A stretch of DNA of 64,000 nucleotides from positions 28,604,770 to 28,668,769 of the forward strand of contig OZ020484.1 of NCBI GenBank assembly GCA_963971405.1, read 5' to 3'. Of the stretch, positions 1-60,241 are shown piece after piece; within the stretch, counting starts at the first letter, position 1; the number at the start of each line of letters is the position of its first letter. The DNA is from Psococerastis gibbosa (lineage: Eukaryota; Arthropoda; Insecta; Psocodea; Psocidae). Position numbers and translations under genes: made by a program. The notes below the pieces were generated by a model. It was not told the DNA's origin. It saw only the letters and a program-made list of their open reading frames with translations, and searched no databases.

Positions 1-3000
1 GGTAAGTTATCCATTGAGCCCTTTTAAATAAAATTCGCAAAACCTCATTATAAGCTAATTGATAGTTTCCTAGTTGCGAGCCCGAACGGGGAACGGTAGC
101 ATCCGAAGAATATTTAACATTAAATGAGCTCTCCAGTGGTTTTACGTCTGTTTGTCGATCTATCTGTTCGTCGATTTCTGGGCAAACTACTCTTAGGATT
201 TGATGAGATTCGCCATTTATGTAGGTTCACAAAAATGTCTCCGGACCATTATTCTATTTTGGGCTAACTCAATTTTAGGGGATTTGACCCCCAAAACTAG
301 AAAAGTTATTTATCAAAAACGGCTCCAACCGCCAATGATTCGTTTTTAAATCAAATGCAACCCACTAGGTCGCTTCCCCCTAGATAGATTGGTTCAGGGA
401 GAAAAACAAAATAAAGAACCGGTACGAGTGAACCCGTACATTCTTTCAATTATTATAGGTAGATAGATAATATTAGTAGTTCCATGGTAAATTATTGTCC
501 TAGTGTTAAATTTCGGTCGCCTCGACTTTCGTTCTCCCAAAGCACTGAATTGTGCAATGGGACGGTTGTATAGTCAAGAATTGGCAAACCAATATAATAC
601 AGTGGACCTACAACACAATAATAATGACAGGGTATAATTATTAAAACTAATATTATGGTGAATTTATTTATTTAATTATTTAAGTCGAGTTTTAAATATA
701 AATAAATAAATGTATTGTGTTTCTTCAATATTACATATACAGTGAGAATATCATGAATTAGGGGTGACCCAAAGGATTTCTCCCGTATGCGGCATACGGT
801 ATGCCATGTAATAATTGATAAGGCGGCTATTCCATCGGCCAATTTGCTTCACTTGTGATACTGTCATTGACGTTTGTTTTGTTTTAAGGAGACTATTATG
901 TAGATACTTAACTTATCTATTATAAATTAAGTTATAATATGGTAGCAGACAACATTAATAAGTCTCTACCATATTATAACTTAATGTATAATAGATAAGT
1001 TAAGTATCTACATAATAGTCTCCTTAAAACAAAACAAACGTCAATGACATTATCACAAGTAAAGCAAATTGGCCGGTGGAATAGCCGCCTTAATAGGAAA
1101 GAATGTACGGGGTTACGCGTACTGGTTCTTTGGGTTATCACACTCATTGACCAGCATTAAATATAAATGAAACACCGTCTTTATTCTAATACACTCCTGC
1201 AATCGGAGAAACCCAGTTTTTCATCAATTATAATTCCTGGTCGCACAGTATTGCAAATTAACTAAAAAAAACTTTAAAGGGTTAAGCGCATACAAACAAT
1301 TCAATGAATGTATCCGATTGCCCTCTTCAGTCGCCTCACTAAGTTACCTAATAGGTACTTGTGTCGAGTTACGACACGTCTCCGATCGCATGGCGTGCAG
1401 AGACTCGCACAAGTACCACCTGGCCATCGAAGTCGATATTCATTGAAAGGATTGTAGTCATCGATGCTATTTTACTTTTTTCCTTGTCTAGGCGGCAGCA
1501 GTGAGATGTTAAGTGCGTCTGCGTTCGTACTGGCGACTGCTGATTCAGACGACGAGTCAGATATCGCACCTGCAGGTAAAGTGTTAAACCGTCTGCTTGA
1601 TCCCAATGCCGTCAGTGACGTCGACGACGTGCCGTCCTCTGAGTCTGGCTCTGACGAGTCCCGTTCTGCTTCGCCGCAAGCGGATGACTGCACATGTAAG
1701 TTGAATAGGATTGGGTAGACATATAAAATTGTAATGGAACTTTGTTGTAGACCATCTACTCTTCCCGCTGACCATGTTAAATGCTAAATTATTTATAATA
1801 AAATGTTTACCGCCATTGTAATAAAGTAATATAATGCAGCCTACATAACAGTGAGAGTTGCTCAAAGTAGTTAGTTTAGTTTAGCCAACGCCCGTCTGTG
1901 GCAGTAGAGCCATTTGACGCCGAGCCTCCCAGTATCTCTTTGTTAGATCAGCAGGTAGATGCTTGAGTCTGGAGCAGGTGTGTAGGTGACTTGCGACCAT
2001 GGTCCCGGAGGAGCAGAGGGGACACACATCTGAGTCACCCCGACGAAAGAACCGGCAGAGGTGTGCCTGCAGGTAGTCGTGGCCAGTCTCGAGACGGAAC
2101 CGGGCGACTGCTTCACTTCTCTCGAGGTTAGCTGGGATGTGGCCTGGAGTCGCAAGCTTTTCCCATACTTTTCCAGTGCTTAGGTTCTTGAGGATGTTTT
2201 TTGAATGTTTTGAGACAATTGTGTCAATTTGATTCCTTGCCGCCTGGAGGGTTTGGTGGATCTCAGGTTGCTCGGATTCTGCTCCTTTTTTTGCCATTTC
2301 ATCTGCCTTTTCATTGCCATCGAGGCCGACGTGGCTTGGGACCAATTGAAGTCGAACATCCCATCCCGCATTGATTAGGTTAGCTATGGTGTTGCGGCAG
2401 AGAATAGTGCGATGGCAGTCCGTGCTGTTGTTGCTACTGAGGGATCTAATGGCAGCCTGAGAGTCTATTAGGAACACGACCTTGTTTGGTGTCACGTCGA
2501 GGGTTTGTATCTTCTTAGCCGCTTCGATGATTGCACACATTTCCTACGGCAGAACTTAACTGGAAGAACTTGCAGAAGGATCCAGCACCAGCAGCATTTG
2601 TTTCGGGAATGTATGTGGATTGTTTCGATGGCACTTTTTTTTAGTTCGATGGCGCTTGTCGCTTGTTTATTAGTAGAGAGATTCGTTAGCCACAAATTAA
2701 CTTTTGGTAAGGCTGAGACGACCGTGGCATAGTTTTGCAGGGGTGCAGGTCTGGCTACAGGAATCTGGTATTTTCTATGAAGAGCTTCAGCGTGGTCTAG
2801 GGGGGTGATTTGGGTTTTCAGTCTCTGAGTTGCCGCTTTGTAGTTACCCCAATGTTTTCCATCGACTCTCTTAGCTCTCTCCCAAAATTTAAGAGTGCAT
2901 TTGTCCCTTCTGGCTTCAAGCGGTTCTAGACTGGTTTGCAGTTGCATTGCCGCAATAGGGCAGGACGTGGCACCCCCAGTAATGGTTCGTAGGGCGTTAT

Positions 3001-8204: not shown

Positions 8205-8264
8205 GTCTGAACAAAGCAATTACTCATAATCCTGGTCTATTGTATAATGTTTTGCTAATTATGC

Positions 8265-9090: not shown

Positions 9091-9217
9091 GGCGGGGTTT
9101 CCACATACGTCAATGAGAAGTATGGTTTTGACGGGGTAGCAGAATTTTTAGTATGTCTTTAACGTCTGCTAAAACGTCAATTTCACATTGACCATTGACG
9201 TATGTGGAAACCCCGCC
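9091..9217. mobile_element. Foldback MITE, TWA/GGCG family (127 bp)
   Basis: Begins GGCGGGGTTTCCACATACG and ends CGTATGTGGAAACCCCGCC, with a centre containing GGGGTAGCAGAATTTTTAG and GTCTGCTAAAACGTCAA. It is followed by TTA; the left flank is GAA, so the target duplication is imperfect. Closely related to the copies at 49788-49927 and 56504-56631. Confidence 0.8.
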
Positions 9218-9220
9218 TTA

Positions 9221-12368: not shown

Positions 12369-12418
12369 AACTTAAAATATTGAAATTAGTGTATACACTA
12401 ATTTCTATATTTTAAGTT
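12369..12418. repeat. 50-bp near-perfect palindrome
   Basis: AACTTAAAATAT and GAAATTAGTGTA mirror TACACTAATTTC and ATATTTTAAGTT, giving a hairpin with almost no loop. It may be a very short foldback element or a remnant of one; no family is recognised. Confidence 0.7.
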
Positions 12419-12509
12419 TTGGAACGGCCTTACCATGTTCAATCCATAAAAGCAGAGCATGTTTCAAACTGCGGCAAACTTGGTAGTGTGCACATCGTTG
12501 GCATGGGAA

Positions 12510-14774: not shown

Positions 14775-15740
14775 CCTCCAAAATTGTGTTTGCCCCAAGT
14801 AATAAAAAGAAGTATCCCGAATTATGATTTTTGTGAACCTACATGCCAAAATCCTTCGAGTAGTTTGCCCACAAATCAACGAACAGACAGATAGACATTT
14901 CGTACGAACCTCTTTTTGGTTCCTGGGACCTCAAAACGTGTTAATCCACCGAAATCGAAAATGTCTACCATCGCAAAGCTATCCTAAAAGAAAATGAGTA
15001 ATTTACGGTAAATAATTTACCCATGATTAAATTTCGGATATCTCGGGGGGGGGGGGGGGGGAGGTTGTCCACCTGACGTCACTGGAGGAGAGGTAAATTC
15101 AAGATAGGTCAGACCAACACATTAAATACCCCACAGCAATAATGACAGGGCATTTGAGCGCGAATTCTCTAACATTTTTTCCAAAAAATAATTTTTTGTG
15201 CAAAACCAAATATTTTTTTGGTCAAATGCATTTGACCGTGAATTGTCTTCAAGTTTTTTGGGAAAGCAACCTGTCCGGTTTCGTTACTCAATTTAACACC
15301 TAAAACATGCCTGAAGGTAGAAATCATCGATCGAAAGATTTCGCAGAAAAAATATTTTTTAGTCATTTTTCACTAAAATTTAGTTAAATTTATTTTTATT
15401 TTTTACCCCAGAAGCAAACTATCAAGGGGCAAGCGACTCCCCGCATTTTATTAACATTAATAACGACTACAATATATGTGAATTTAAAAGAAATCTTTGG
15501 AGCCGTTTTTGAGAAATAATTTTTTAGACTTTTTTGGAATTTTTTGATAATAAAACCCCCCAAATTGAGTTAGCCCAAAATAAAAATAAATGGTCCCGAG
15601 GTATGATTTTTGTGAACCTACATTCTAAATTTCATCAAAATCGACCGAGTAGTTTGCCCGGAAATCGATGAACAGACAGACAGAGCTAGAGACAGATATT
15701 TCGTAAAAAACACTTTTTTGGGTTTCTGGCAGTTAATGAT
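14775..15740 (+). repeat. GAACCGG-family repeat, long copy or two abutting copies
   Basis: Contains the family blocks in forward order: TGTCCACCTGACGTCACTGG after a 16-bp G run (about 15046-15061), TCAGACCAACACATTAA, GGCATTTGAGCGCGAATTCT, CCTGAAGGTAGAAATCATCG, ACTATCAAGGGGCAAGCGAC, TTGAGTTAGCCCAAAATAAA, GTGAACCTACAT, GAGTAGTTTGCCCGGAAATC and CAGACAGACAGAG. 14775-14960 repeats the terminal blocks, so at least two copies or a partial duplication are present. No coding capacity seen. Confidence 0.75.
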
Positions 15741-17147: not shown

Positions 17148-17365
17148 GTAAGTTCAAGACACTGATCATGTGACCTACGGTATGGTAGAGCTCAAGTGAA
17201 ATTTGGCCTCTGGGCTTTAAACCCCTATAAAAAAAAGAAATATGGTTCAACTGTCAAACTGAAATTCAGTGAGGGACAGAACCAATAAGTACCTACAGTA
17301 TGTTTCTGTAACGAGGGTGACCGTATGAATTATGGTTTGTACCTGTACCTACCTTTTTTTTAATG

Positions 17366-17480
17366 TTAATCGAATTCAAACAATTTTATTGAATGTATTC
17401 GATTAACCTCGTCAGTCACCTCACTAAGTAACTTAATCCGAACGCATTGTGTGTAGAGACTCGCACAAGCACCATGCCGT
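17366..17480 (-). repeat. SINE family A, partial diverged copy
   Basis: Matches the family body (CAAACAATTTTATTGAATGTA, ACCTCACTAAGTAACTTAAT, GTGTAGAGACTCGCACAAGC) but lacks the segment containing the GAGTTACGACACGTC block. It is oriented like the other copies. Confidence 0.6.
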
Positions 17481-18600: not shown

Positions 18601-18949
18601 ATCTATATAAAAAGCCTGCTATGTTTTGTACAATAATTACAACGTGTTATTGGAAAATAGATAGCTGATCACTTTTAATAATAACATGTTGCGTGTGTCC
18701 AGGAAGTCAGTTCAGGGTTGTCCATTCTCCAGAAACCTCTGATTTAGGGCTCTGGGCCAAGGGTATGAATTGAGCCTTCAATGGGAACGTTCCGATGTAC
18801 ATACACGCGTCCAGGATTTATTTCTGGGTAGGACTTTCGCAAAAAGAAAATAATTTCTGAGAGCCATAGCGGGAAATGGGCTACATGTTAATGTACGCGT
18901 AACCTCAAAAAACAGGGCCAGCAAGTTGGTATGAAGTTCCCATTTTGCA

Positions 18950-19533
18950 ACGTCTAAAAAAAATTATTTCTCAAAAACGGCTCCAACGATTTCTTTTAAA
19001 TTCACATATATTGTAGTCGTTAGTAATGTCAACAAAATGCAATGGGTCGCTTGCCCCTTGATAGTTTGCTTCTGGGGTAAAAAAATAAAAGTAACTCAAT
19101 TTTCATGAAAAATGACTAAAAAGTAACTTTTCTGTGGAACCTTTCTATCGATGATTTCTACCTTCAGATATGTTTTAGGTGTTCAATTGAGTAACAAAAT
19201 CAAACAGGTTGTTTTCAAAAAAAAATATTTGTGTTCTGTGCTAAAAAAAAATTTGAATAAATTATGGAAAATTCACTTTCCAATACATGGCGTGCCTTGT
19301 TATTGTTACTACTGTTACAATGCATTGGTCTGTTCGTTCCAGAATATGCAGTTGAGTTTTAATGGGTTTTTAATAAAATTAATATATTATATTGAGGTGG
19401 ACCCCCCCCCCCCCCCCCGGATCCGAAATTTGAACATAGGGAAATTATTTACAATGGAATGACACATTAAGTCTATCTACTACCTACTTTATAAATTGGA
19501 AAGCATGTTCGAGTAAACTCGGACCGGTTCTTA
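18950..19533 (-). repeat. GAACCGG-family repeat, reverse copy with intact terminus
   Basis: Reverse-oriented blocks from TTATTTCTCAAAAACGGCTC, through GGGTCGCTTGCCCCTTGATA and TCGATGATTTCTACCTTCAG, to a pure C tract (about 19407-19424). It ends TATAAATTGGAAAGCATG then TTCGAGTAAACTCGGACCGG and TTCTT. The C tract is the complement of the G tract in forward copies. Confidence 0.75.
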
Positions 19534-21031
19534 TTACTATAATTAGCGCGGTGAATTCGCGAAGATAAATATTTGACTTTTTTGAAGAACATTGCTTTTG
19601 TGTAAGAAAAAATATGCATCGTTCAAGTTGGCCTATACAGTATTTTAACATTTCGGGGTAGAATGGCTGATGAATAATTTCAAGGAGTGAATAAGACCTT
19701 GTTCCGAAGCACTTTTGATGTTCCAAAAATTAGCCTAAATGACAATGGCACATGTGGTAAAGGGTGTTCCATTAGTATCCTGAAACTTAGTTAATATCCC
19801 ATTTTATTGTAACCTTATTTGCTTAAAAATGAAGCTATTCATATCTCTGCTGTTCTCGAAGCTGTGGATGATCTGTAGTGACAGTAAGTGTTTGTTTTCT
19901 TAATCCGACTCAGAGGTTTCATCACATCCAGGTTAATTAGGTAAGGGAGAGAGGTGACAGTAATAGTGATGAACTTTGTCTGCAATGCGTCGGGAAATAT
20001 GAATGTTACAAGAACAATCGCGTCCCTCCTCTTGCTGGTAGACAGCACCACCTTTATTTATTCGCAACAAGGAGCCTTTTGCTGCACGTGTCATGTCAGA
20101 GTGGAAAGTACTCTTATTGTGTGAGGTTTTGTAACCCCCTGGTGTATTGATGTTATTGAAGTGGACTAATGAGGAGATATCGTGGTCACTTCCCACCACT
20201 CTTTATGCCACTCCTTGCCAGCTCAACTTCTCTATACAGCCGGCAGCCCTGTATTTAAGCTTTGGGGGAATGGAACATTTTCGATGCCATTCACTAGGCA
20301 TAGGTTCCTTGCATTATTGCTTTCCTATTTATGCGTAGTATAAGGAAAACTGGGAGGTGGTCGAAATTGTCAATTTCGAGATTGCAACGGATTTACACGT
20401 TTTGAGGTCCCAGGAACCCGAAATATCTGTCTCTCGATTTGTGGGCAAACTACTCAGTGGATTTTGATGAAATTTTGCATGTAGTTTCACAAAATTTTGG
20501 TTCCTTTTTTTATATTTGGGGGGTTTTACCCACCGAAAACTAAAAAAAAAAAAAAACGGAAATGGCTGTTGGTGATAAGGTGTTGCAACTTAAAAACCAA
20601 CTGTTAACCTATTTGACAGTTTGTCAGATTTAATTCGTACATGCCATAAGCCTCATAAAATGCGTCGTAACTTTGTACTTGCTTATGATTTTTATCAGAT
20701 CAAACTAAGGGCCTGTGTCGATAATTATACTTCATTCTTCATTGGGAAGTTGTGTATCCGCCTCACACTGGTATTAAACCAGAGCCCGATAATTGATTTT
20801 GAAACCAAGCTGTTGCCATAATGATACAACCGGTCGATGCTATACGCGTGCTAATAAACGTCCGCGCCACATAGTTTGGCCTGCCGCCAGCTGACAAGGT
20901 ACTGTATTTCACCCTCTGCCGAACCTGCCCTTTTGCCTTTTTAAGATTATCGAAGTTTTAAACGTGACATTGTCGTATTGTGCGTGTACTGTATGGGCTG
21001 ATGTTCAGAGCTGTCCTAAAGTACTTTTCTT
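19534..21031. other. Stretch without a recognised gene
   Basis: No supported gene. A reverse fragment of the GAACCGG family occupies about 20360-20560 (AATTTCGAGATTGCAACGG, GTGGGCAAACTACTC, GATTTTGATGAAATTTTGCA). The rest shows no recognised structure. Confidence 0.45.
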
Positions 21032-21203
21032 TAAGATTAATCGCGTACAAACAATGAAATGAATGTATCGGATTGACCTCTTCAATAGCCTCACTAAGTA
21101 ACCTAATAGGTACTTGTGTCGAGTTACGACACGTCCCCGATCGTAAGGTGTGTAGAGACTAGCACAAGTACAAGCACGCTGCCACCTTGCCACCGAAGTC
21201 GCT
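21032..21203 (-). repeat. SINE family A copy, near full length
   Basis: Contains the whole body: TAATCGCGTACAAACAATG, GATTGACCTCTTCAATAGCC, TACTTGTGTCGAGTTACGAC and GTGTGTAGAGACTAGCACAA. It ends with ACCTTGCCACCGAAGTCGC, the minus-strand head with the A-box region. Confidence 0.7.
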
Positions 21204-23939: not shown

Positions 23940-24710
23940 AATGCCATCGTATTACTGTGTCGCTTAGAACAGGTCTTGGGCTACTAGAGGGCCATTCATC
24001 TGCATTGATAAACTGAGGGATATTGAGCTGTTGCCACTTTTGTGTGGTTTTGGCTTTGTGGCCGATGGTAGTCTTGCTGGAATACCCATTGTTGGTCATT
24101 GAACATGGTCTCAGTTAGAGGCTTCACATGTTGCTCAAGAACTGTCTCCTGGTACACTTTAGCACCCATCTTTAACTTAACCCTGTCTCGCAGAAATCAC
24201 CATCACTGAAGAAGGGTAGTAGCCACGCATAATCTTCGGACAATTTGTTTGGCTTCCTGAGATGGTCTTGCGTAGATCTCGTCATTTTGCATTTTGAAAG
24301 ATTCTTCGACGGTAAAGATTTCTTCATTGGCTTGCAGAAATCACCATCTCTGTAGAAGGGTAGTAGCCACGCATAATCTTCGGACAATTTGTTTGGCTTC
24401 CTGAGACGATCTTGCATAGATCTCGTCATTTTGCATTTTGAAAGATTCTTCGACGGTAAAGATTTCTTCATTGGCTCATGTTGGATTTTTTTAACTTTCC
24501 TGTCCATTGGCTGCGTACCATCGTAAGAGGGCTTTTGCTCTTTTGTATCTTATTTCCAATTAAGAAATGACCTGTCATGCGCCGGTAGGCCTTAAGTTGC
24601 GGTTCATCTTTCAATAGGCGGCTTACAGATTGCTCCAATATGTATAAAGAAGTGTATTTGTACGTAATATAGGCTACCAATGTACATCTGCTCGTTCTCC
24701 CCTGCGTCAC
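23940..24710 (-). mobile_element. Mariner-type transposase relic
   Basis: Minus-strand fragments line up in order with mariner transposases: SVSRLLKDEPQLKAYRRM (helix-turn-helix linker), then, in another frame, EEIFTVEESFKMQNDEIYAR with SSQEAKQIVRR. These are followed by MGAKVYQETVLEQHVKPL and NDQQWVFQQDYHRPQSQNH around the second catalytic Asp. The block around EEIFTVEE is duplicated in tandem (see 24191-24478). Several frame changes and stops make it non-functional. The first part of the gene and the terminal repeats are not seen. Confidence 0.82.
24191..24478. repeat. 144-bp tandem duplication inside the mariner relic
   Basis: Two head-to-tail copies start at CAGAAATCACCATC (24191 and 24335) and share CCACGCATAATCTTCGGAC, TTTGTTTGGCTTCCTGAGA and TCGACGGTAAAGATTTCTTC. 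They differ at only a few positions, so the duplication is younger than much of the decay. Confidence 0.9.
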
Positions 24711-25520: not shown

Positions 25521-28500
25521 ATGATGGCCACTTCTTCGAGTTCTACGGTGGAGATTCAGCTGGAGCCCGTTCCGCCGCACCAGGTCCTTTCCTTGCCCGC
25601 GCCTCTGCCAGTTGCGGTACCTGTTGCCCCTGCGGTTGCTCGCAATGAGAAGCCAAAGATTCGAATAAGTTACAAGTCTCACTTCCGTAAGTTTTTTTGT
25701 CGTTTCATGGTTAATTGTTTCGAGAATGCCACCGAGTAGAGATTTATTTAATTTCTGACATTGTACAAAATTCATTAAGATGACTTAAGCCGAGATCGGG
25801 TTTTTTGTGCGGTCAATGTAATCACTTTAATACGTACGTAAACACCTGTCGTGTTTACATTGCAGGAGACTGGAAAATTCTCCTTCAATAATTTTAAAAA
25901 GGGCAAATTACGTACGCCATGCGTCTACCAACTTCGAAAAGATTTTATATACATTTCAGAGGATAGCTAGCGACACCGCGTCTAAGGCAGCTATGCCACC
26001 GACCTCGTTTTCCATAATGTAAGTGCATGACGTGGTAGCAGACATCATTAATAAGTCTCTCATATTTTAAGGGGACTACAATGTAGATACTTAACATATC
26101 TATTATAAATTAAGTTATAATATGGTAGAGACTTATTAATGGTGTCTGCTACCACGTCATGCACTTGCATTATGATAAACGAGGTCGGTGGAATAGCCGC
26201 CTAACTGCGAGCACAATAATAATTTTTAATTGATCCCGAATGAATCTATTTTGACCTATTCAAAACATCGATCAAAGGTGGCTGCAGGCGGCCTACCTTG
26301 TTGTATTGTACTTTGATTCTTATAAAATCGAAGCAATCAAAAGAATACGGCGGAATAAGATTTTAGGCGAAGGCAACAAGGGGTATACGGGTTACATTCA
26401 ATAGATTTATTGTGACATTAATAAAGTGACGTGTCACCTTCACATTCCCCCTCCCTCAAACTAATGAGATAATAATTTGTTCAATGTCAACAATAACTTT
26501 AACGATTGTTGTGAGGGCAACGCATGAGCACTGAGTAGTGTCAGGGGGTGAGTTGCCCCCTTCCATCCCCCACCCCTCAAGAAAAATATAAAATAATATT
26601 GGAGCTCCATTTACATATTTTTAATATCTTTCATTACAGCTGTGGCACAGCGTTACCAGTCGCAGACTGCGCCATTCAGCTTATATTTTATAATTCAACT
26701 TAGGCTACCTATATTTGAGTTTTTAAGCATCAGCGACGCCTAATAAAATGCGATATTTCTCTAGTTCTTATACCTTCTTGAAGAGGAACTTCACTCCAAT
26801 TATATAAGTACTACTAACATTGAAAATTTTAACCAAGATTGTTGTAAAATAGAATTAAACATAGAGCTCTAAATATTATTGTATACAATTACATAAGTAG
26901 GCTATACTTATACTTAGGCTTACTTATAACGCCGTATTTAAGAGTGTACAGCCTGTAGGAAATTGGCAACCCGAAATGTATTCCTTTTTATTTTTTATTT
27001 AATTAACTAAACATGTTATTAAAGATTTGGCTCATCAAAGTTGTAGAAGACTACTTCATGCATCATATTATAAGATATTTTTAATTTTCGAAACTGTAGT
27101 TTTTTCATAAAAATGCAGATATTTTATAAACAATAAATTTTCACGTAAAAGCGATTTTATAAAAAAAACTACAATTTCGAAAAACAAAAATACCTTATTA
27201 CATGATGCATGAAGTAGTCTTCTACAACTTTGATGAGCCAAATCTTTAATAACATGTTTAGTTAATTAAATAAAAAATAAAAAGTAATAAATTTCGGGTT
27301 GCCAATTTCCTACGGGCTGTACACTCTTAACGAACAATGTAAAAACATTTTCTCTCGTCTGACTCATAACGCTCAAAAACTTAAACTTGAACTGGATATA
27401 GCAAATAAACCTTGAAATGCAATGAAGGCACTATTGTACAATATCTAGAGTTTCATAAAGAACTCTGAAGGTTTAACTATTTATTTACTATAACGTGCGT
27501 TTGATCTTTTTCAATGCAGAGATTTTTTAATGTAAAGGAACAAAGAATGAGACGAAATTAATTCATTCCTGCCCCAGTAACAAAAATATGAAAGCGATGA
27601 AAAATTCACAAGAAATAAAATAAAATTTTCATATTTAGGTACTGTATTACTCACCTGAAATAGGCTATCATTGTACTGTATTATTAGACTTCAATGAAAC
27701 CCGAAAAGTGCATTATCAGTTCTTATGAATATGCACCGCGAAGTGCAATGAGATGTAAACAGCTCCCCTTTACCATCTTTTAATGGGTTTTGAATGGCGA
27801 ATTTTTATTTGTAAACTGAAAACGTGACGGAAACAGTACAAAGGTGAAATGTTTTTTTGAGTGATTGTTTACGGTTGGTGGCCCTGTAATTCGTTAGTTG
27901 ATTGATCGTCTCAGTTTATGGCAAGTCATAAATCTCTGTGGCCCATGCTGACAATCGTGTTCTGTTGCATGGCGGATGCCCACATTTCTGACAGCGTTCC
28001 TTCAGTCAGCTCTTCACTATTTCTCCCTTTATTCCCTGTTGATGATGAACTCCTGGCGGGTGTTCCTTTGAGAACAACCAAACATGTAGAACCCTTGACA
28101 CCCATCGAGCACCCCGCATTTTCTCCTCTAGGTCTCCCTCATCATACGAACCAGCCTCCCCGTCATCCACTTCCAATTCATCTTCTTCAAGAAAGGCTTG
28201 GCCGAAACATTCAAATCTCCTTCTTCATATAGAGCAGGGTGTGAAAGCAGCAGGCAACGCGGTTTCCCTGTCCAACACGCAGTGTCAGCAGTTTGTCATC
28301 CTCAATGGGATAACTCAGTTGCGAATATTTGCGCCCCCCCCCCCCCGAAATGGGAAAATATAAGTCGTACTTACTTTTACTTTTTCGTGTCCAAGCGCGT
28401 CCAAAACTGGGCGAAATTCATAGCCGCCACATTGGCCTCCCACAGGTCTTCAGGTGTGCAGCGGTGGGGGCAAAGGCTGCACAGGAACAGATGTTCTACT

Positions 28501-43600: not shown

Positions 43601-46600
43601 CAAGCCAAGTTCCATTACGCCCGCGTCGAATTGTCTCAAAATTTTTGTCAGATAAAATCGAATGCCAGAACTGTCAATTACTCCTGTAATACAATATAAA
43701 TTTGCCTAAATATTTATTTTCTGTTAAGAGGAAGCTAACCATAGATATACTCGCAACCCCTGGAGCACCCCGAATTCTGATGGTTTATTTTTTTTTAAAA
43801 GGTGGTTAATAGGACGTAAAATAATCATATCATAAGAAAAGCTTGCAGTTTGTTTATTTAAATATTTGCACTTTTTATTTTATAACTCGACTTCATGGTT
43901 ATTAGAAAGAAAGAAAATTGTCTTTATTGTCCATATCCGGGCGAATTGAGGCCTTTCGGCCCACTCTTACAATTAAACTTGACACAAAATTTGTATTTTA
44001 ACTGCATGCATTCATTGTATATACTAGTATTTTAGAATATTGTAAAATTTCCACCCTAAAACGGGCCTAGCCCATAGGGAAGTGACAAAAAACTGTAAAA
44101 AATTTTATTTTGGAAATACATTTTGATTGATTGATTGATTGAACCCAATTAAGGTTGAAAATCTAGTATATTTTTGTACACGTATGGTGGGTCCTACCTG
44201 GTTCCAAATTAGGGTTATGATAGTGCACTTCCACCATGACATATGGATTAAAATCAGGACCTCCAATCGGAAGTCCTGCCTCCTGAAAATAATGAAAGTA
44301 AATTGACACCCAGTATATAATGGCCGTACAAGTGAAGTATATTTAATTCTTGCTTAAACGTGTACATATTTTTTTGAACCTTCACAATCTTTATGGCTGT
44401 TAAAACCCTTATTATAAAATTGGCATTCTCCCATACTTTGGGGTAGGGAACCCGATGTAAATTGTGGCAGCAGTTAATTAACAGTTTATTAATCCGTGAT
44501 GGTCGGAGGGTAGCGTATGTGGGTAAAAAACATTCAGTTGAGCCATGCGTCACAAATTATACTGTATTTGCAATGGAGCTTAGGCGGCTATTCCACTTGT
44601 CAATATTCCGTCATTTGTTCATCAATAATTGATTAAACTTTTGTTTTATTCTATTTCATTGTCCATTTTAACTTGTGTATGTTAAAATTGATCAATGATC
44701 ATAGAGTAAAATCACGCTTTGCAAACAATAACAAACTAAAATTAAACAATGGCGTCGTCTGAAGATGATAAGTGAATAAATGAATAACGACTTTATTGCA
44801 ACAATACAATTGGCGAACAATAAGACTATAAAAGTTATAAAATTAAAAGGAAGAAACTTACAAAATTGGAAAAAATTGAAAACAACAATGTTCAATTATT
44901 GAAGACAAGTGGAATGAGGTGTAAAAATATAAATGCAACATTGATGATATTTCCGTCAATGACATCATCAAAATTGAAGAAAAACTGACAAGTGGAATAG
45001 CCGTCTTATCGCGTAACACTTGCATTTTATGCCTCACTCAATACACATATATTCTGTATGTACATTGTTTCGCTCTCCATGTGTGAATGAATGTGTGAAT
45101 GTCTCTGCACTTAGTGTTATATTAGTAATAATATTGTACCAATTTAACACTATTTAGCTAGCCCTCTAGTTGAGTGTAAGAAAGGGCCCGAAGGCCCTAA
45201 CTCCGCTAGGGGAGCCTAGTACAATAAAGAAACTATTATTATTATTATTAACCGTGATTTTTCTGCTGTGACGTATGGGTCAACTCAGTGTGGTTTTACA
45301 ATAGTACTATAATATAATTGTACAACTACTAGGCCTGTATGCACGGCAGTTAATTGTCAAATGTCTTTATAAAAAGAGAGGGGCACACTGCACCTTGGGG
45401 TAGGAGAAAGCTGCTGCGCCCATCGCCCAAGCCCCAATCACATGCTTGCAGACTTGGGTTGCTTTGGGTCTTTCTGGTGCATCGCAAGGCCCTTCATAAT
45501 CCGGCATTGCCACATTAGCGTCAGTCTCGCAGTGAAATACCTCCATGTGATGTACTTTGTTCTCATTCTCAATAGCCGGCTCATACTGAAATGAAATAGT
45601 AGGGTTGCCAACTTTTATTCCACCAAATATAGTACAGGTATTTTCAAGGCCAATATGTCTCAAAATATAGTAGATCATGGAAATGTCTAAAAAAAATATA
45701 GTAGGATAATTTATCATAATTTTTTATTAAATTGACTTAACTCCTTATTACTTATTGTACCTACTTTACTACTGTTTTTTTTTTAATTTTTAGAAGAATA
45801 TTTGTTGCTGCACGTAACAGCTTTTTATTTTTTTTATGAGAAATTCAAACATTGGGATTTGTCACCCTTTCTATATTATGGATTCCTATATGAAAGTACT
45901 CCACTCAAAGTTTTCAGTTTTGCAACCAATGTTTGAAAATGATAACTAATGATAATTTAACATGTAGGCTGAAGCAAAAATAAAATTGTTGGTAACCGTC
46001 AGCCTATATCATTCGTGTACCTGAATGATATGATGTTTTATTTTTTTGAGAGCGTCTGGTAGTTTTATAACTTTGCACCAGTATGTCGTCTCGATGTTGG
46101 GAATTTTGACTTGCTTTGTCTTAACTTCGAGTTTCCAAGTGTCGGGGGGTTGTATTATTTCATCTACGATCTGCAGTAATCTAGTCCTCTGAAACCCTGA
46201 TGCCCATCTCGACTTCAGGCTCATTCCATTCAGACTGTAAAGGGGGCCTTCACCCCGTGCCCAAACTATGTGTGTTGTTCCATCCTGAAACATTTTGAGA
46301 TTATTGCAAACTTTCATTTAGTAGCCTATTTCGAGTAGCCCCTACGCGAGACAATGGAGCTCAGTGCGGACATTGCTTGTCACTTGTCAACTGGTTTACA
46401 CTATTTTCATTCGAAAATCCCACTTTAGGCATAAATTTTAATTGACAAGACGATAAGAGGCAGATGTGCACACATACAGTAGCTATCTAACTCTAGATAG
46501 ATATTAATATTACTTCAATAATGTAGTCATTCGGATCGCATGTGTCAAACTTCCTGGAGAACGTGTATTTAACTACTCTTTTACTTCTGCGCATTTTGAA

Positions 46601-49381: not shown

Positions 49382-50067
49382 GGCGCATATTCCACCAACG
49401 TCAATAGTGATAGTAGATGTAGTATTGACGGAAATTTGAATTTTACTCTTTGCCATAGTTAAAATTGATCAATGATCATAAAGTAAAATCACGCGTTGCA
49501 ATAAACAATAGCTACGGTAACTAAAATGGCGCCATGGGATATGTTAAGTACAAACATTTTATATGTTATTGTTTATAAAACAATTATCATCCATTAAACA
49601 GATCGGTGAAGGTCGATCTTACTTCGGATCTCATACTATTATTAGGTTTTATTAAAAATAATAAGTGTGCGAAGAAAACAAATACAAACAAAATTTTTAA
49701 AAACAAATGCAAACAAATTTCAAAAAAATTGGCGCATACGTGTCATTAGAAGAAAAGTGATCAGTAGTTGAAAAAACCACTGGGAATGGCGGGGTTTCCA
49801 TATACGTCAATGGTCAATGGTAAATATGGTGTTGACGTGGTAGCAGACATTTTTAGTATGTCTTTAATGTCTGCTAAAACGTCAATATCACATTTACCAT
49901 TGACCATTGACGTATGTGGAAACCCCCAATTGCGTGTATCAATGAAAAATTCAAATTTTCGTCAATACTACATTTACTATCACTATTGACATTGGTGGAA
50001 GGCGCTTATTACACCTACGTCAATACCACATTTACTTTTGACTATTGACGTAGGTGGAATAAGCGCC
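49382..50067. mobile_element. Nested cluster of three foldback elements
   Basis: The outer element starts GGCGCATATTCCACCAACG (after TTA) with GTCAATAGTGATAGTAG. Its other arm, CTATCACTATTGACATTGGTGGAA, lies at about 49976-50000. Its interior holds AATTGATCAATGATCAT and ATGGCGCCATGGGATATG. A 140-bp element (49788-49927; GGCGGGGTTTCCATATACG, GACGTGGTAGCAGACATTT) lies within it. At the right boundary a 67-bp foldback (50001-50067; GGCGCTTATTACACC to GGTGGAATAAGCGCC, then TAA) replaces the expected end. Confidence 0.78.
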
Positions 50068-52132: not shown

Positions 52133-55100
52133 ATGAGGTTCAAGGAAGGATACATTTTTATAGCATTTTCTATGCTTTTTATTCTTTTGAGGATACCTTC
52201 AACTTATGGTAGGTATTTGTTTTTAGATAAATCAGAAAATAATAGAAATGATATCGGTTAGAAACTTCAAAGTTCGTTGGGCTGCGTCGGCGCAGCTGTC
52301 GGATTTCTGTTGTAAACGCTCTAGCGGCAGCATTCTTCTGTTGCTCCGCTGATGGTTATTATTATTAAAAAATACTGTGTCTCGATATAATTTTATTGGA
52401 CTCATAGGGTATGGCGTATGGCACCAATCATGGACACATTCTCATTACTTGCCGACCAAGGAATACAAAGGAACACGAGTTGATTAATAAATTCTAAATA
52501 AGTTAGGCCTAGTCCTATTGAAATGTAACTCAAAGAATGTAAATTCCAAAATTTTAAAGAGTCAATTGATGGAAACAATATTGCCTCCGATGCTGTTCTG
52601 AGAATCAGAATTTAGTAGGTAGGCTTATTTGATGTTAATTTTGATGTCAACGGTGTCCTCGCGACTGGCGGGCTATATCTTTGCAAAATTCAATGCTAGT
52701 GATAAACAATTAAATAGGTAGTCTAACGAGTAGTGTTTGAGTTTGACAATGAATACTTGACATTGTTGTTGTATCTGTTAAAGAGCACTAGGTGCAAATG
52801 GTCAAATTTCAATTAAAATACGTTATTCACTGTTTTTCACACTGTAAGACCACTTTTTTAGTTCAGTTCTTAAAAATTTTACCCAACTGAAATCTTTTAG
52901 TTTTTTTCTAACTCATAGTCTGACAGGATTTTCATCAATAATGTAAGTTTTCTTGGAACTATAACTTGAGCTTTAATTACTCGGTTAGCATACTTTTTAT
53001 AGTTGTTTGTTCACTTAAAAGTGCCCTCGTTTAACGTGAGTTGCATTCAGCCTACCTGTTGGTGGCGTGGGAAGAATCTCGAAATCGAGATTCGAGATGC
53101 ACACAAAATGAGACAACCTTACTATTTTCCTGCCGATGGAATGTCCTACATGAATAATGGATGTTTGCTGGCCTCGGTTAAATTGTTTTGCTTTAGGGTC
53201 GAACAATGGAGTGGACACCCCATTTCAGTGTAATGTGTTCCATTGACAAAAATGTCATTGTGACTATTTGGGTTTGACTACTTTTAAAATTTCTGCCCGT
53301 GAAAAGAGACCTTGGTGCTCGCTAAATTGGGGGAAACAAAGCGTTACCTTTGCTCAGGGTGGGCCGCCCATCTTTTTGACAATTATTATTAAGAGTGTAC
53401 AGCCCGTATGAAATTTTTATTTTTTATTTAATTAACTATGCAAGTTATTAAAGATTTGCACATTGTAGAAGACTACTTCATGCATAATTATAAGGTATTT
53501 TTAGTTTTCGAAATTGATTTTTTTTTTATAAAACCCATATAATACGTGTAAAGTTATTGGTTATAAAATATATACAAGTATCATGTTTATGAGAAAATTA
53601 CAATTTCGAAAATTTATATATATATACATATATATATATGATGCATGAAGTAGTCTCCTACAACTTTGATGAGCCAAATCTTTAATAACATGCTTAGTTA
53701 ATTAAATAAAAAGTATTACATTTCGGGCTGCCAATTTCCATAGGGCTGTACCCTCTTAATGCACGGAGTAGAATTAATGTCCCCTGCTATGAGACAGTAA
53801 ATCGTATGGGCCTGCTACCTGCGAGTTGATTTAACAACTACAGGTGGATAGTGACTAATTTCTTTTCTGCCAAGTTGACAACGTTGGTGTGTACTTATGT
53901 ATTTTCCGGCTGAAAACAGATTTTAGTCGATCTTCTCGCAAACATGTTGATGACATTGTATTACTCTCGAGGACGGAATCAATGCTATCCGTATCAAGTT
54001 GGGGTTGATACATTTGAAACAGATTCAAAAATGCAGTCGATTTTATACCTACTCAACCCAAACCTGGTGAATGAACGTATCCCATTTTAATGCAGCGATT
54101 TTGTATTATGTGAAGTAGCCTACATGTTTTCAATTCATTGTATGCAAGCAAGATTGCATGAGAATGTGCTCTTAAGGAACTGACTTCTTATCATACAGGC
54201 TTTGGTGTAATTGCCAGGGAAAGTCTTGCGAACGCATTAACACTTGGGCTGCTCATTCCATTTCCCACATATTTTACTGACTGGACTGTAAGACTTGTGC
54301 GCTTAAAATTCAGATGTAATTGTGATCATGAGTATTGACTAGATCCCCTTGTCATCTTTCATCTAACTGGATTAACTAGAACTATCTTAAAAAATTCGGG
54401 TCTAAATAATTATAATAGATACACTTTATGTAGCCTTACCATACGTCTCGGCTTGACCGGGATTGTCCCGGTTTTCAAGCCTTCACTCGGGTGTCCCGGC
54501 AAGTCATGATTTTGTCCATTAACATTAATTTAACATGCACTCCACGAAGTTTTGCTGAGTGAGAAATACGAATGGTACCTATTCAAAATAAAATGTAAAC
54601 CAGTGTATTTGTTTTCATGTTCTGGTTTACAAGAACCTTTCGTAGTACCTAGATAGGACATAGTTTTTACTCAAGTTTAGACTCTAGATTTAGACGTTAT
54701 AAGCATGTAGTCATTTGACGGTATAAGACTATTAGCAGACTATTACCAGAGTACCTAGCGCTAACTATGAGATACCAAGAAAGGTACCCCTACGAGACGA
54801 GAAATCGAGAAAATCTAACTACTAGTGGTAGTCAAGTCAGGAAGACAATATTTCAAGACGGAATCTCCGAATATAACAAACTAAGCAGAAAAATAAGAGA
54901 ATGCAATACAGTGGAAATGTTCAGAAAAAAACTAAAGGAAGTGATTGTGTGTAAAAGGTTAAATGACTGAGCTGATCATGGATGAAAGACAATTAGTAGA
55001 AGTAGACTGAACTATGAACTGTTGTAAACAAATAAGTGTTTCACTTCTAAGTTTTCAACAACAGCAACAATTGAATGTTTCCATAAAAATTTACACTAAA

Positions 55101-58100
55101 TAGAAACCTTCCCATTCTGTCCCGGTTTGAAGTCTGAAAAATATGGTCAGCCTAACTTCATGTCTGCCTAAAAGATACCAGCATTGTAAATAAAGCTTTA
55201 GGGAGGGCAACTTTAAAAACATGACGCAAAAGAAACGCATTCTGCTAATGTAAAAATATGTTTAAGAATAAAAAAAGTGAAACGTTACATGTGGATTAAC
55301 TATAGTATAATATATATCCGAAAATATATATCCGAAACAAGAGAATGAAGTAGGTAAACCATGCCCCGGACAAACATGGATCTTGGGCGAGCTCCACTGT
55401 AATTTTTTTCTTGATTCCCATGTTTCGGATATAATGTACTGTGGAGGTTGCCTCTACTAATTATGTAAATTTAATGTGTTATACATTTCATGTATTATAA
55501 TCACAATTATATTGCAATAAAATTCTAGGTTAACTTATTAAAAAATCTGCTTGCTAGAAAATTTTGAGGTTCGTTGCGACCCTATTGAATGTTTTTCTGG
55601 CATTTGTTTAATGTCGGTGGCTAAGGGAATCTCAGACCAACCAATTTCACCTCCGTCTTTACCGACTCTCCGAAAAATGAGTAATAGGACAATTTGAATT
55701 AACCCTCACGCAATCGCATAACCAAAGAACCGGTCCGAGTTTACTCGAACATGCTTTCCAATTTATCAAAATTAGTAGATAGAGAAAATGAGTAATTTCA
55801 TGGTAAATAATTTTCCTATGGATATATTTCCGATATCTGGGGGGGGGGGGGGGGGCGGGGTGTCCACCTGGCGTCACTAGAGGTGAAGTAAATTATAGAT
55901 AGGTCAGACCAACACATAACCACACAGCAATACTGGCAGGGCACGCAATGCATTTGAGCGTGAATTTTCTATAATTTTTTCAAAAAAACATTTTTTTTTA
56001 CAAAACCAAATAAATGCTTTTCCGGAGTTGGAGCCGTTTTTTGGAAATAATTTTTTTACACGTAAAATAAAAACCCCCCAAATTGAGTTAGCAAAAAAAA
56101 AAAAAAAAGTCCCGAGATATGAGTTTTGTGAACCTACATGCCGAATTTCATCAAAATCGACCGAGTAGTTTGCCGGAAATCGACGAACAAACAGACAGAC
56201 AGACATTTCGTAAAAACAACTTTTTTGGGTTCCTGGGAACTTAAAACGTGTAAATTCGTTGAAATCTCGGAATCGAAAATTTCGACCGTCACAAAGCTTT
56301 CATTATACTAAGTATAAATTGGAAAGCAAAAACTGAACCGGTTACTTTCCCAAGAAAGGTTTTGATTTTGAAGAAAAAAATATGTTTTGAATAAATTATG
56401 GATTCTCCTTATTACCATTGCATTTACATTGCATTCCATGCCATTACTTTTGTGTGTTGTTATGTCTACCCATTCTAAACAGCAATATATTATTGTCTCT
56501 ATAGCGGAGCTTCCACATCCGTCAATCGTCAATGAGAAATATGGAGCAGAATTTTTAGTATGTCTTTAATGTCTGCTAAACCTTCAATTTCACATTTCTC
56601 ATTGACGATTGACGTATGTGGAAACACCGCCTATGATCAGTCGAGTGTTCTAGAATAAGGAAAGGCTGCCTAAACCCTTGACAAATGGGTAACATAGAAC
56701 TCATCTATGCTAATAGAAAAATTGAAAGCATGTACGGGCTCACGCTATGCTATATTTCTTATAAAATGTGAGGTAAGGCCACATTGAAACCACTATTAAT
56801 CTTTCCCTATGACCGGTCCCTTCAATTGTAAATTTTGTAATCCATCTGTTCTCTACGCTGATTAGGATAAGATTTAGAATATTATGCCGGTTTAATGCTA
56901 TTGAAGGAGTTATAGTTTTATTAGACTCCAATAAATCCAACATAAATTGTTTAAATAATCTTACTTTGCTTAAAGCTTAATAAATATACTAGGTACTATA
57001 GTCTGCGTGTGTGGAATTGTAAAAAAGTCCTTGGGTATGCTAGTGGTGTGTTTAGTAGTCTGATCATTCCAGTCTGTGAAGACGGCTAGAGAATGCACGT
57101 CCCTTGTGCAGTTGTGAAGTCGACAGAATTAGAAATAAGACGAAGAGCATTGCAGGTGTACAAGTTGATTGCATTCTCTTTTACTGCCTATTGTGGTCTT
57201 TCCCATCACAGATTTAATGAATTCACAGCACAAAAACTTAATTAGGCATTTTCCAAGCGAGTTGTAGATGCTTCCAATATATTTTATGTGTGCAGTTTTC
57301 CTCTGTAGTGGGTTAGGTCCTATTCAATTTGCGCGGCAGTTACTGCTTTTAATAACTGTTTTTGTGAGTGTATTACTATTTACTACCACATTTTGTGTGG
57401 ATGTTATGGAACGACATGGAAAATGTACGGAGAGGTTGAGTTAAATTAGCATAAGAAACATTAAGTAACTTTATGTCTTTAGGCCTACTTGGTGTTGACA
57501 GCTTAAGAACCTTGTTTTTTTTTAACATTGCCAGCGTTGTGCCGAATATTATGAGTTTGAATGGAGCGGGTAACTTTGATTACGAGACTCAATTGAAGCA
57601 TTATTCATTCGAAGATGAAGGTTTAAACGGCAGTTTCCGGGATGTCCCCCGTCCACATGTAGCCCCTTCAGCAATCTCTACTGGTACAGTAGCATTGCTG
57701 TATTCTCATCATATATATATGAAGGTGTGAGTTTAATTAATGGCTGCCTAAATATGTACGCATTGGATGAACCTGCCTCACTTATTGAGATGGCATTATA
57801 GGATAAAATGGGCATCACCTTTTATCTGGGTTAGGGGATAAGTTGGATCTCATCCCTCTTTATTTTTTTTACAGGCTACCCTTTTTACTCAATTACATGT
57901 GTGTAGTGCAGTACACTGACATGTCAGAGCGGCTCCGACCATGCATTGAAATATTAGGCGCCCATTCCACCGACCGGCTAGGGCTATTTACAAAAACGGT
58001 GACGCGGTAGCAGACATTCAAGACTTAGGCGGGGTTTCCACCGACCTCGCATTGCAGAATTGACGGAATTGTTTATTTTCCTCTATGCCATAGTTAAAAT

Positions 58101-60241
58101 TGATCAATGATCATACAGTAAAGTCACAAACAAACAAACTAAAATTAAAATATGGCGTCATGGGATATGTTAAGTACAAACATTTTAATAGATTTCTATA
58201 AAAAGAAAAATTCTAATTTCCGTCAATGTCATTTGCATTCTGCAATGCGAGGTCGGTGGAAACCTCGCCTAAGTCTTGAATGTCTGCACGTCACCGTTTT
58301 TGTAAATAGCCCTAGCCGGTCGGTGGAATGGGCGCCTTATGGACAATTTTGTTTCGGATGGACTTCCACACCAGCAATAATTGCAGCCAACCTGTATTAG
58401 AAAGAGAAAAATTTCTTCTGCTTGTTCACTTTGTCCTGATGTATTTGACAACTCAACGAATGAAATTTCATGAGATATTGGTTTTTATACTTACAGGTTT
58501 TCCCCCCTCCTATTTTCCCTTAAGTCGTTGGTTGGAGTCGCTCTTATCCAAATAAACAGAGAGAACGTGCGATACGAAATAATTTTCTAGTAATTTATTC
58601 GCTGACTATGTACTTGCCTTACCTGTAATGTCCTCAACAGGATCTTCTTTCCAACTAATGGTCGTTGCGTATTTCCCATAACTTGTGTGGTATTTATCCT
58701 TGCTGATAGGTAGCGTGGTTCAGCGATAGTAAGATATGAATAGTTTGGTCACACTCCATGGGAATTACGTTGAGGGGCACGTGGACTTTGTTTGGAAATT
58801 TGTCTTTAAAAAAAAAAAAACATATTTGCTGCTCTTGACAGCTTCTATACAATAAAATATAAAATATGCTAGATAAGTTAGCTCATAGGTTAACACTAAT
58901 AATGCAATGTTTTAAAATATTGTAAATATTAAAAAACAAATAAATTAATGTGAGTTTGAATTACAAGAGCCAACAGTCACAGTCCAATCGTCCTCGCCCC
59001 CTCTGCATCGCAAATGACGTCACACTCCCATACCAGGGACCTGATTTTTAAACATCAAACATAGAACTAAACGAAATAACGTTTTTAAAATTAAAGAACC
59101 GGTCCGAGTTTACTCGAACATGCTTTCCAATTTATCAACATTAGTAGATTTTCCAGTGGTTAAATTTCCGAAATCTCGGGGGGAGGGAGGGGGGTTGTCC
59201 ACCTGACGTCACTGGAAGTGAGGTAAATTCTAGATAGGTCAGACAAACACATTAATTACCCCACAGCAATAATGGCAGGGCATTTGAGCGCGAATTCTCT
59301 ATCATTTTTTCAAAAAATAATTTTTTGTGCAGAACCAAATATTTTTTTGGGAAAGCAACCTAACCTGTTTCGTTACTCTATTTAACACCTAAAACATGCC
59401 TGAAGGTAGAAATCATCGATAAAAATTATTTTTTAGTCATTTTTCATTAAAATGTAGTTATTTTTATTTTTTTACCCCCAGAAGCAAACTATCAAGGGGC
59501 AAGCGACCCCCCGCATTTTGTCAACATTAATAACGACTACAATATATGAGAATATAAAAGAAATCGTTGGAGCCGTTTTTGAGAAATAAGGTTTTTTTGG
59601 AGTTTTTTGAGAATAAACCCCCCCCCCCCCAGATTGAGTTAGCCCCAAATAAAAAAAATGGTCCCGATGTATGATTTTTGTGAACCTACATGCCAAATTC
59701 CACCCAAATCCACCGAGTAGTTTGCCCGGAAATCGATGAACAGACAGACAGACATTTCGTAAAAACCACCTTTTTGGGTTCCTTGGACCTCAAAACGTGT
59801 AAACCCGTTGAAATCTCGGAATCGAAAATTTCGACCATCACAAAGCTTTCCTTATACTACGTATAAATTGGAAAGCAAAAAATAATTTTAAGGGGTTAAA
59901 TATATCTACGAATGCATTCAAATTGGCCTATTGACATGGCAAACCATAGAGAGGAAATTGAAATATTTTTTTTATTCACGAGTATATTGATAATTATTTT
60001 AATCAGCTGAAAAATTGATTTAATTCCAGAAAAGATGGAACTTTTCGAATGTACATCGTGTGCAATCATGGCCTGATGGCAAATCGGACTAGTCATCACT
60101 CTAGCTATCGTTCATATTGCTTTGCGTTATTATTTTGTCTGATAATTGTAATTTTGTTTTAGGTTTCGATTCCTGTTCACCTAGTCCCTGTAAAAATAAT
60201 GGCGTTTGCGTCCCTGGAGCAAGAGGAGGATCTCATTGCAA
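52133..60241 (+). CDS. EGF-repeat secreted or membrane protein, first two coding exons (partial)
   Basis: Exon 52133-52208 begins MRFKEGYIFIAFSMLFILL and RIPSTY, a typical signal peptide (basic start, about 15 hydrophobic residues, small residues before a likely cleavage site). It ends in phase 1 at TTATG|GTAGGT. Exon 60163-60241 enters in phase 1 after TTTTGTTTTAG and reads FDSCSPSPCKNNGVCVPGA, RGGSHC: the first four cysteines of an EGF module with the C....C..NG.C spacing. It ends in phase 2 at AA|GTAAGTG. The fifth and sixth cysteines must lie in the next exon, outside the window. Intron length is about 8 kb. An EGF module directly after the signal peptide occurs in Notch, Delta/Jagged relatives, fibropellins and others; Notch is a candidate only. 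Any exon between the two would have gone unnoticed. Confidence 0.62.
52209..53388. other. Start of the EGF-gene intron
   Basis: No repeat or coding sequence recognised; only short frames without domains. Confidence 0.35.
53389..53759. mobile_element. Long foldback element, TTAAGAG family, second copy
   Basis: TTAAGAGTGTACAGCCCGTA to TAGGGCTGTACCCTCTTAA. Shares AAGTTATTAAAGATTTG, GAAGACTACTTCATGCAT and ACAACTTTGATGAGCC with 26938-27330. A TA repeat of about 25 bp lies near 53615-53640. Confidence 0.78.
54436..55157. mobile_element. DNA-transposon-like repeat containing a LINE fragment
   Basis: The left end TAGCCTTACCATACGTCTCG with GACCGGGATTGTCCCGG mirrors right CTGTCCCGGTTTGAAGTCTG and ATATGGTCAGCCTA. 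Between them, 54767-54970 (+) reads MRYQERYPYETRNRENL then FQDGISEYNKLSRKIREC and MFRKKLKEVIV, the C-terminal tail of a Jockey/CR1-like LINE (F..G...YN.L...IR.......F...LK). The LINE piece was probably inserted into, or captured by, the repeat. Confidence 0.6.
55160..55723. other. EGF-gene intron, AT-rich
   Basis: No recognised repeat or gene. A short tandem ATATATCCGAAA pair lies near 55311-55340. Confidence 0.35.
55724..56325 (+). repeat. GAACCGG-family repeat, internally deleted copy
   Basis: Starts AAAGAACCGGTCCGAGTTTA and CTCGAACATGCTTTCC, with a G tract at about 55840-55857. Then TGTCCACCTGGCGTCACTAG, TTGAGTTAGC, GTGAACCTACATGCCGAATT, CAGACAGACAGACATTTCG and GTATAAATTGGAAAGC. The middle third present in 59094-59881 is missing. 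Confidence 0.8.
56504..56631. mobile_element. Foldback MITE, TWA/GGCG family (128 bp), diverged
   Basis: GCGGAGCTTCCACATCCG to CGTATGTGGAAACACCGCC. The centre, GAATTTTTAGTATGTCTTTA with ATGTCTGCTAAACC, is nearly identical to that at 9091-9217. Flanks ATA/TAT are not a clean duplication. Confidence 0.75.
56632..57956. other. EGF-gene intron without recognised elements
   Basis: Short frames only, including an 85-codon plus frame at 57473-57730 with no domain. Nothing can be supported. Confidence 0.35.
57957..58336. mobile_element. Composite foldback element (380 bp), second copy, inverted
   Basis: GGCGCCCATTCCACCGACC to GGTCGGTGGAATGGGCGCC, flanked by TTA on both sides (57954-57956, 58337-58339). 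The inner element 58028-58269 (GGCGGGGTTTCCACCGACC to GGTGGAAACCTCGCC) sits at the centre after GCAGACATTCAAGACTTA. The interior is the reverse complement of that at 28654-29036, and includes ATGGCGTCATGGGATATG (MASWDM on plus). Confidence 0.9.
58340..59093. other. EGF-gene intron without recognised elements
   Basis: No coding exon or repeat could be supported. Confidence 0.35.
59094..59881 (+). repeat. GAACCGG-family repeat, best full-length copy
   Basis: From AAAGAACCGGTCCGAGTTTA to GTATAAATTGGAAAGC. Blocks in order: interrupted G tract (about 59178-59193), TTGTCCACCTGACGTCACTG, TCAGACAAACACATTAATTA, GGGCATTTGAGCGCGAATTC, GCCTGAAGGTAGAAATCATC, AACTATCAAGGGGCAAGCGA, AAATCGTTGGAGCCGTTTTT, C tract (about 59618-59630), GTGAACCTACATGCCAAATT, CCGAGTAGTTTGCCCGGAAA, CAGACAGACAGACATTTCG and CGAAAATTTCGACCATCAC. 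The first 40 bp (..GCTTTCCAATTTAT) and last 15 bp are partly inverted copies. About 790 bp, non-coding, at least seven copies in the window. Confidence 0.82.

Follow-up and report, generated by a model that had tools for sequence, protein, structure and literature searches.

How hairpin MITEs arise from ordinary short-TIR transposons is still argued. A stretch of 64 kb from Psococerastis gibbosa, analysed here as a whole and referred to as the window, raises this question at close range. Hairpin and non-hairpin relatives with a common stem-loop axis, together with apparent palindromes of both element sides, lie within these 64 kb, so that a snap-back model of hairpin birth becomes directly testable in the host genome. 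The elements are ordinary genome residents and belong to a known class; the family is real and mechanistically informative, and what sets it apart is that relatives with and without a hairpin are grouped about a single stem-loop.

Inventory and structure of the elements

Thirteen related short elements were found at nine insertions, counting the nested ones. None has an intact ORF, and most fold into hairpins. They are named E1 to E9, with o for outer, i for inner (nested) and c for terminal parts, and are given here with the identity of their left and right arms:

E1, 822-1089: 268-bp hairpin with alpha arms (124/129 identical); the axis is a single-copy stem-loop; flanks TAA/TTA
E1 axis stem-loop, 941-970: GGTAG-CAGAC..GTCT-CTACC, homologous to the subterminal stem-loop of E3
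E2, 9091-9217: 127-bp hairpin with delta-A arms (42/53) and centre GTAGCAGAATTTTTAGTATG; flanks GAA/TTA
E3, 25986-26201: 216 bp with beta arms (78/87) and the GTAGCAGAC block on both sides; TSD TAA/TAA
E4o, 28654-29036, minus strand: outer hairpin with gamma arms (98/104, continuing into the nested element) and the GTAGCAGAC block; TSD TAA/TAA; 95% identical to E9
E4i, 28725-28966, minus strand: nested at the E4o axis, with beta arms (32/33) and an ATG-type internal block; flanks TTA/TAA
E5, 32412-32551: 140-bp hairpin with delta-B arms (59/70) and a GTAGCAGACATTAAAGAC centre; TSD TTA/TTA
E6, 44583-45005, plus strand: 423-bp short-TIR element (27/32, with 355 bases between), ATG-type internal block, no GTAGCAG centre; TSD TTA/TTA
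E7o, 49382-50000, plus strand: delta-B arms (52/55), ATG-type internal block, right tip lost
E7i, 49788-49926: delta-A hairpin (55/61) nested in E7o, right tip truncated
E7c, 50001-50067: 67-bp minimal hairpin (24/25) consisting of a tip with a single delta arm, directly adjacent to the right end of E7o
E8, 56503-56631: delta-A hairpin (36/40); flanks TAT/TAT if the first base is 56503
E9o, 57957-58336, plus strand: the E4 composite again, inserted at an unrelated site (99/104, continuing into the nested element); TSD TTA/TTA
E9i, 58028-58269, plus strand: nested inside E9o (32/33), ATG-type internal block

All nine intervals of the original prediction are thus inverted-repeat elements with coordinates right within one base, the start of E8 being better placed at 56503. 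Five short hairpins of the 13 elements were folded as DNA, with z values of -10.4 to -14.9 and 0/200 shuffles as good for each. The locus at 49382, where several elements had been expected, indeed holds more than one and is composed of three. The loci at 28654 and 57957 are real as well, but they represent two copies of one nested composite. The 95% identity of E4 and E9 extends over 384 aligned positions with the same nested structure, their TSDs differ (TAA/TAA and TTA/TTA) and their 250-base flanks are without similarity; the simplest reading is therefore that the composite moved as one unit. The position of the nested insert at the E4o/E9o axis was considered as a remarkable feature and rejected, since two of the four TTA/TAA positions in the E9o halves lie at the axis. 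The flanks of E4i (28721-28724 and 28967-28970) read CTTA[element]TAAG. For a direct TWA duplication in a CTTAAG site one base is lacking, and the symmetry of the flanks may be a sign of arm homogenisation. At the E7o/E7c junction (49946-50067), the right tip of E7o is lost where the 67-bp minimal hairpin starts, with no remnant beyond; the junction looks like recombination or conversion and not a simple insertion. The outer flanks of the whole E7 locus are TTA/TAA.

Conserved tip, TGACG block and two kinds of interior

The tip consensus is GGCG-NNNN-TT[C/A]CAC. Its exact form, GGCG-N4-TT[CA]CAC[ACT], occurs 18 times in the elements, 0 times elsewhere in the window and 0 times in the reversed window. 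With two mismatches allowed, the tip is common both in the window (80) and in the reversed window (54), and thus the loose tip alone proves nothing. A tip within two substitutions of the exact form stands at both ends of 11 of the 13 elements; E7o and E7i have it at the left end, and their right tips are truncated. Farther inward, TGACG lies 34-48 bases from the tip in 23 of the 26 arms, being missing in the left arm of E6 and in both arms of E8, and the base preceding it is not T in E3, E4o and E9o. The 2752 element bases contain 28 copies of TTGACG/CGTCAA, and the remaining 61248 bases of the window contain 17. We suggest TGACG as a candidate binding site for an accessory Myb/MADF protein.

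Two kinds of interior follow TGACG. The first is a GTAGCAGA-type block, present in E2, E3, E4o, E5, E7i, E8 and E9o and carried once, as a loop, by E1. A shared centre had been expected in most loci, and this holds for eight of the 13 elements; GTAGCAG is absent from E6 and, at the 49382 locus, from the outer and terminal elements. Allowing at most two mismatches, GTAGCAGACATT occurs 16 times in the window, 12 of these in elements, against 5.25 expected, and 0/100 shuffles reach 16; exact GTAGCAGAC occurs eight times inside the elements and never outside them in the window. The second interior is a leader ending in a start codon and is common to E4i, E9i, E7o and E6 (four copies aligned). From this block, E6, E7o and E4i/E9i appear to be internal-deletion derivatives of a coding transposon that keep its leader and start codon. 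The 83-aa frame that runs through E9i after the shared ATG had no Pfam match at E 0.1, and a MADF origin, which the letters of the ATG block had brought to mind, thus gains no support from Pfam.

Profiles built with one arm type left out recovered the beta, delta-A and delta-B arms with best E values of 3.5e-5, 3e-8 and 1.5e-9, respectively. Recovery was weak for gamma (E 0.0038 in E4o and 0.12 in E9o) and marginal for alpha (E 0.044 in E1, with E6 not found). In the reversed-window controls the best E values were 0.07 to 0.99, and one type gave no hit. Exact matching of three family patterns to viral contigs gave 1, 0 and 0 matching stretches, the single match (18 bases in a 22.5-kb contig) being taken as chance, and a 23-base family pattern gave 0 in bacterial and archaeal contigs; both collections are non-animal and say little on copy number. 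A string search of the literature with sequence strings of the family gave no paper on transposons by title.

Conservation between and within elements

We compared the segments between arm types and between the two arms of one element. Between types, identity is 94% at tip positions 1-4, 38% at positions 5-8, 86% at positions 9-15, 35% in the arm, 89% in the TTGACG columns and 82% in the core GGTAGCAGACATT of the hairpin members, all of which values favour the motifs where the aligner anchors. They cover 20 of the 26 arms (11 for the core); the left arms of E2, E6, E8 and E9i and the right arms of E4i and E9o were excluded because they are shortened or align poorly. When the left and right arms of the same element are compared (nine of the 13 elements), tip positions 5-8 are 94% identical, the arm 87% and the core 78%. 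The tip and centre are therefore conserved while the arms differ, as had been predicted. Among eight chosen pairs of arms, bases 16-44 of different types align no better than shuffled sequence (226 to 574 of 2000 shuffles as good in three pairs), and those of the same type align clearly better (0 or 1 of 2000 in five pairs).

The position of the block bears on what this conservation means. The centre adjoins the TGACG block and forms the inner end of the arm; it does not stand apart as an island of its own. The shared middle is best interpreted as the inner portion of a single ancestral transposon end that was copied onto both sides. Of the two causes originally offered for the conservation, the first was a functional centre. 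Insertion does not strictly require the GTAGCAG block, since E6 lacks it and yet has a TTA/TTA duplication.

The other cause was the exchange of arms by gene conversion. The left and right tips of an element clearly match. Positions 5-8 agree in 41 of 44 cells, with a shuffled mean of 18.4 and 0/20000 shuffles as good, for 11 of the 13 elements (the right tips of E7o and E7i are truncated) with the near-duplicates E4 and E9 counted apart. The core, however, does not follow this pattern: its identity is 78% within elements and 82% between types, the low within-element value coming partly from unlike left and right cores in E2, E7i and E8. The evidence from individual sites is mixed. In E7i and E8, sites 25, 33 and 34 agree between the arms of each element and differ between the elements; side-specific states persist at arm positions 39 and 42, and the deletion in the left arm of E8 makes the alignment unreliable further inward. 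E5 and E7o show six sites of the arm-matching kind and none by side. E7i and E2 show no arm-matching site and only side-specific or single-arm ones (four side-specific in arm and block; 16 over a longer alignment), and the one arm-matching site of E8 and E2 lies in the poorly aligned stretch with the E8 left-arm deletion. Both the core values and the comparison of E7i with E2 weaken the case for a general correction between arms; in this small sample, inter-arm correction is supported in some lineages only.

Proposed fold-back origin of the hairpins

The order of parts in E1 and E3 bears on how the hairpins arose. The right half of E3 runs from the middle through the stem-loop GGTAGAGAC-loop-GTCTGCTACC and an arm with TGACGTGG to the tip, and its non-palindromic middle is common to the E1 arm. 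The middle and stem-loop are common to E1 and E3 over 90 bp (93% identity), and this similarity stops at the base of the GGTAGAGAC..GTCTGCTACC stem-loop. Past this point E1 repeats the middle in inverse, so that the same stem-loop forms the axis of E1 but lies in the right half of E3. The similarity beyond the stem-loop is weak, yet only 3/1000 shuffles are as good, and the break is not perfectly clean. The inverse repeat makes E1 a left-side palindrome whose axis is the stem-loop that E3 has near its right end. By eye, the delta hairpins appear to be right-side palindromes about the equivalent block. The minimal hairpin E7c was rejected as proof of snap-back, since an identical product results if a delta hairpin loses the sequence between two direct repeats of CGTCAATA, the left outer and the right inner one.

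Considering these points, we propose the following course. A PIF/Harbinger-type transposase encoded elsewhere would recognise the tip and insert the elements at TWA, where the duplication itself is observed. One end with its subterminal TGACG-GGTAGCAGACATT block would have been copied in inverse at the stem-loop in the block, giving the hairpin members, either by snap-back synthesis or by template switching during gap repair; at one stem-loop, either route could yield both the left-side (E1) and the right-side (delta) palindromes. This would place the block at the axis of the GTAGCAG hairpins or immediately beside it, and the arms would be copies of one end, which would make the centre the birthplace of the hairpin. 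Inter-arm correction could later have kept the arms matched in some lineages, as the few informative pairs suggest. Taken as a whole, with a Tourist-like family, fold-back hairpins and some arm correction, we consider this the best explanation, with moderate confidence. Tentatively, and with low confidence, the subterminal stem-loop may even be a recurrent fold-back axis, where a parent L-M-SL-R gave rise to L-M-SL-M'-L' (E1) and R'-SL-R (the GTAGCAG hairpins), so that new MITE subfamilies would arise again and again at this one axis, with inter-arm conversion afterwards preserving the symmetry of some of them.

Different elements may also have exchanged parts. We find this doubtful as the main account, in which ectopic gene conversion or recombination would have reshuffled arms, tips and cores between elements residing together. 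Beta arms are found with the hairpin core (E3) and the ATG core (E4i), delta arms likewise with both (E2 and E5; E7o), and the tip types GGGT (E2, E4i) and GCTA (E3, E6) each with both cores. Arms of different types are without detectable similarity in the three pairs tried while the tip and block are similar, the flanks of E1, E2 and E7 are unlike, and a precedent is described for Galileo, where chimeric copies have unlike 7-bp flanks (PMC3573991). The same combinations would be obtained, however, if each master had one ATG-side and one GTAGCAG-side end, both of them open to duplication, and E2, inspected as a chimera of E8 and E7i, is not clear-cut.

Common ancestry alone is unlikely in our assessment. 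One ancestral hairpin MITE with the same tip and centre would have diverged, its arms drifting with only the tip and inner block constrained, and neither snap-back nor conversion would be involved. This would agree with the alignment of the delta-A members E2, E7i and E8 along most or all of their length, with the side-specific or single-arm differences between E2 and E7i, and with the recovery of most types by profiles that left them out. It does not explain why arms within an element are 87% alike compared with 35% between arm types, why sites in the E7i/E8 and E5/E7o pairs changed in both arms, or why E1 and E3 place their common middle on opposite sides of the stem-loop.

Target sites and superfamily assignment

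We counted TSDs at the nine outer insertions, leaving out the nested ones. The flanking triplets are identical as direct repeats in six of the nine (TAA, TAA, TTA, TTA, TAT and TTA), which comprise five TWA duplications and the TAT/TAT of E8, the latter counting only if the element begins with A at 56503. TTA or TAA occupies 15 of the 18 flanks and is found on both sides in seven of the nine insertions, where at least five copies had originally been noted. With random placement, the mean is 0.18 identical triplet pairs and 0.94 TTA/TAA flanks, and 0/20000 trials reach either observed value. The unlike flanks are those of E1 (TAA/TTA), E2 (GAA/TTA) and E7 (TTA/TAA), two of which are inverted and not direct repeats. 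No empty site was found within the window for the joined 250-base flanks of the nine insertions.

A 3-bp TWA duplication and short TIRs with GG-type ends are both features of PIF/Harbinger elements, and both are present here. Flanks are identical at a 2-bp register in one of nine insertions versus six of nine at 3 bp, and a TA duplication of the Tc1/mariner (Stowaway-like) kind is thus not supported; at 4 to 8 bp the count is 0/9, and no 7-bp duplication of the Galileo kind was seen. The predicted PIF/Harbinger-like mechanism is consistent with the TWA target and the tip layout, and on these two features we provisionally assign the family to Tourist-like MITEs of the PIF/Harbinger kind, the superfamily itself being deduced from them. 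A source in another superfamily with 3-bp or TA targets appears quite improbable: no transposase is seen among the window's ORFs of at least 150 aa, the nested insert has its CTTA and TAAG flanks, and the flanks of E1 and E7 are unlike (those of E7 compatible with a TA duplication), but the 3-bp register matches in six of nine insertions, five of them TWA, against one at 2 bp and none at 4 to 8 bp.

Comparison with known systems

PIF/Harbinger elements and Tourist MITEs are described with a 3-bp TSD (PMC2836001). Tourist-like MITEs such as mPing and BmMITE-4 to -6 resemble the present family, as far as their descriptions go, in the TTA/TAA target duplication of 3 bp and in a length of a few hundred bases. 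Among the Bombyx TWA elements, the closest tip is that given for BmMITE-4, GGGTCAATTCCCACT (PMC2997013), in which a TTCCCAC block comes after a GG-type end; those of BmMITE-5 and BmMITE-6 are less like the present tip. The present family differs from Tourist-like MITEs in that several of its subfamilies are near-complete palindromes with a common inner block.

Galileo of Drosophila mojavensis is similar in another respect, since the account in PMC3573991 includes TIRs enlarged by recruited internal sequence, copies that consist of nothing but two TIRs, and chimeric copies whose two flanks differ. It differs in belonging to the P superfamily and in its 7-bp flanking duplications and inverted repeats of about 600 bases or more. 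The zebrafish Angel MITE, likewise a hairpin-forming short inverted-repeat element, is presented as the basis of a stem-loop amplification model in which intrastrand pairing is proposed to be important (PMC12628747). Here, by contrast, pairing is proposed to create new palindromes at the subterminal stem-loop, and multiplication would be by transposase. Lastly, in zebrafish Harbinger3_DR a Myb-like protein is reported to bind a 9-bp subterminal motif (PMC9710019); the candidate TGACG motif is comparable to that short motif in its subterminal place alone.

Other features of the window

The window has a G+C content of 34-46%. Its reading frames include one for Rad17 (Pfam E 1.2e-25) and a LINE frame that encodes endonuclease and reverse transcriptase; it also contains an RNase H frame beside the LINE frame, a further and separate RNase H frame, and DOMON and copper-monooxygenase stretches. 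The six ORFs of at least 150 aa are LINE or RNase H, Rad17, or opposite the LINE, and neither a transposase nor an autonomous copy was found among them. ARAGORN found no tRNA in the window, and there was no Rfam match at gathering thresholds.

Several other repeats were also observed. A separate long palindrome at 26938-27330 has arms of 177 bases that are 93% alike, with 39 bases between and without the GGCG tip; 80 of its bases recur inverted at 53636-53715 (96%), and it is probably another hairpin element family. A dispersed repeat family containing GAGTAGTTTGCCC and GACAGACAGACATTTCGT occupies 14801-15706, 18949-20494, 55773-56332 and 59132-59881 in pieces that are 60-93% alike, and E8 lies about 170 bases from one of its copies. 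A second dispersed repeat is found at five places (1263-1448, 17348-17474, 21018-21203, 60846-61031 and 63642-63816), several of which contain GTACTTGTGTCGAGTTACGACACG. Finally, a tandem duplication at 24184-24476 consists of a 144-base unit in two copies that are 95-96% alike.
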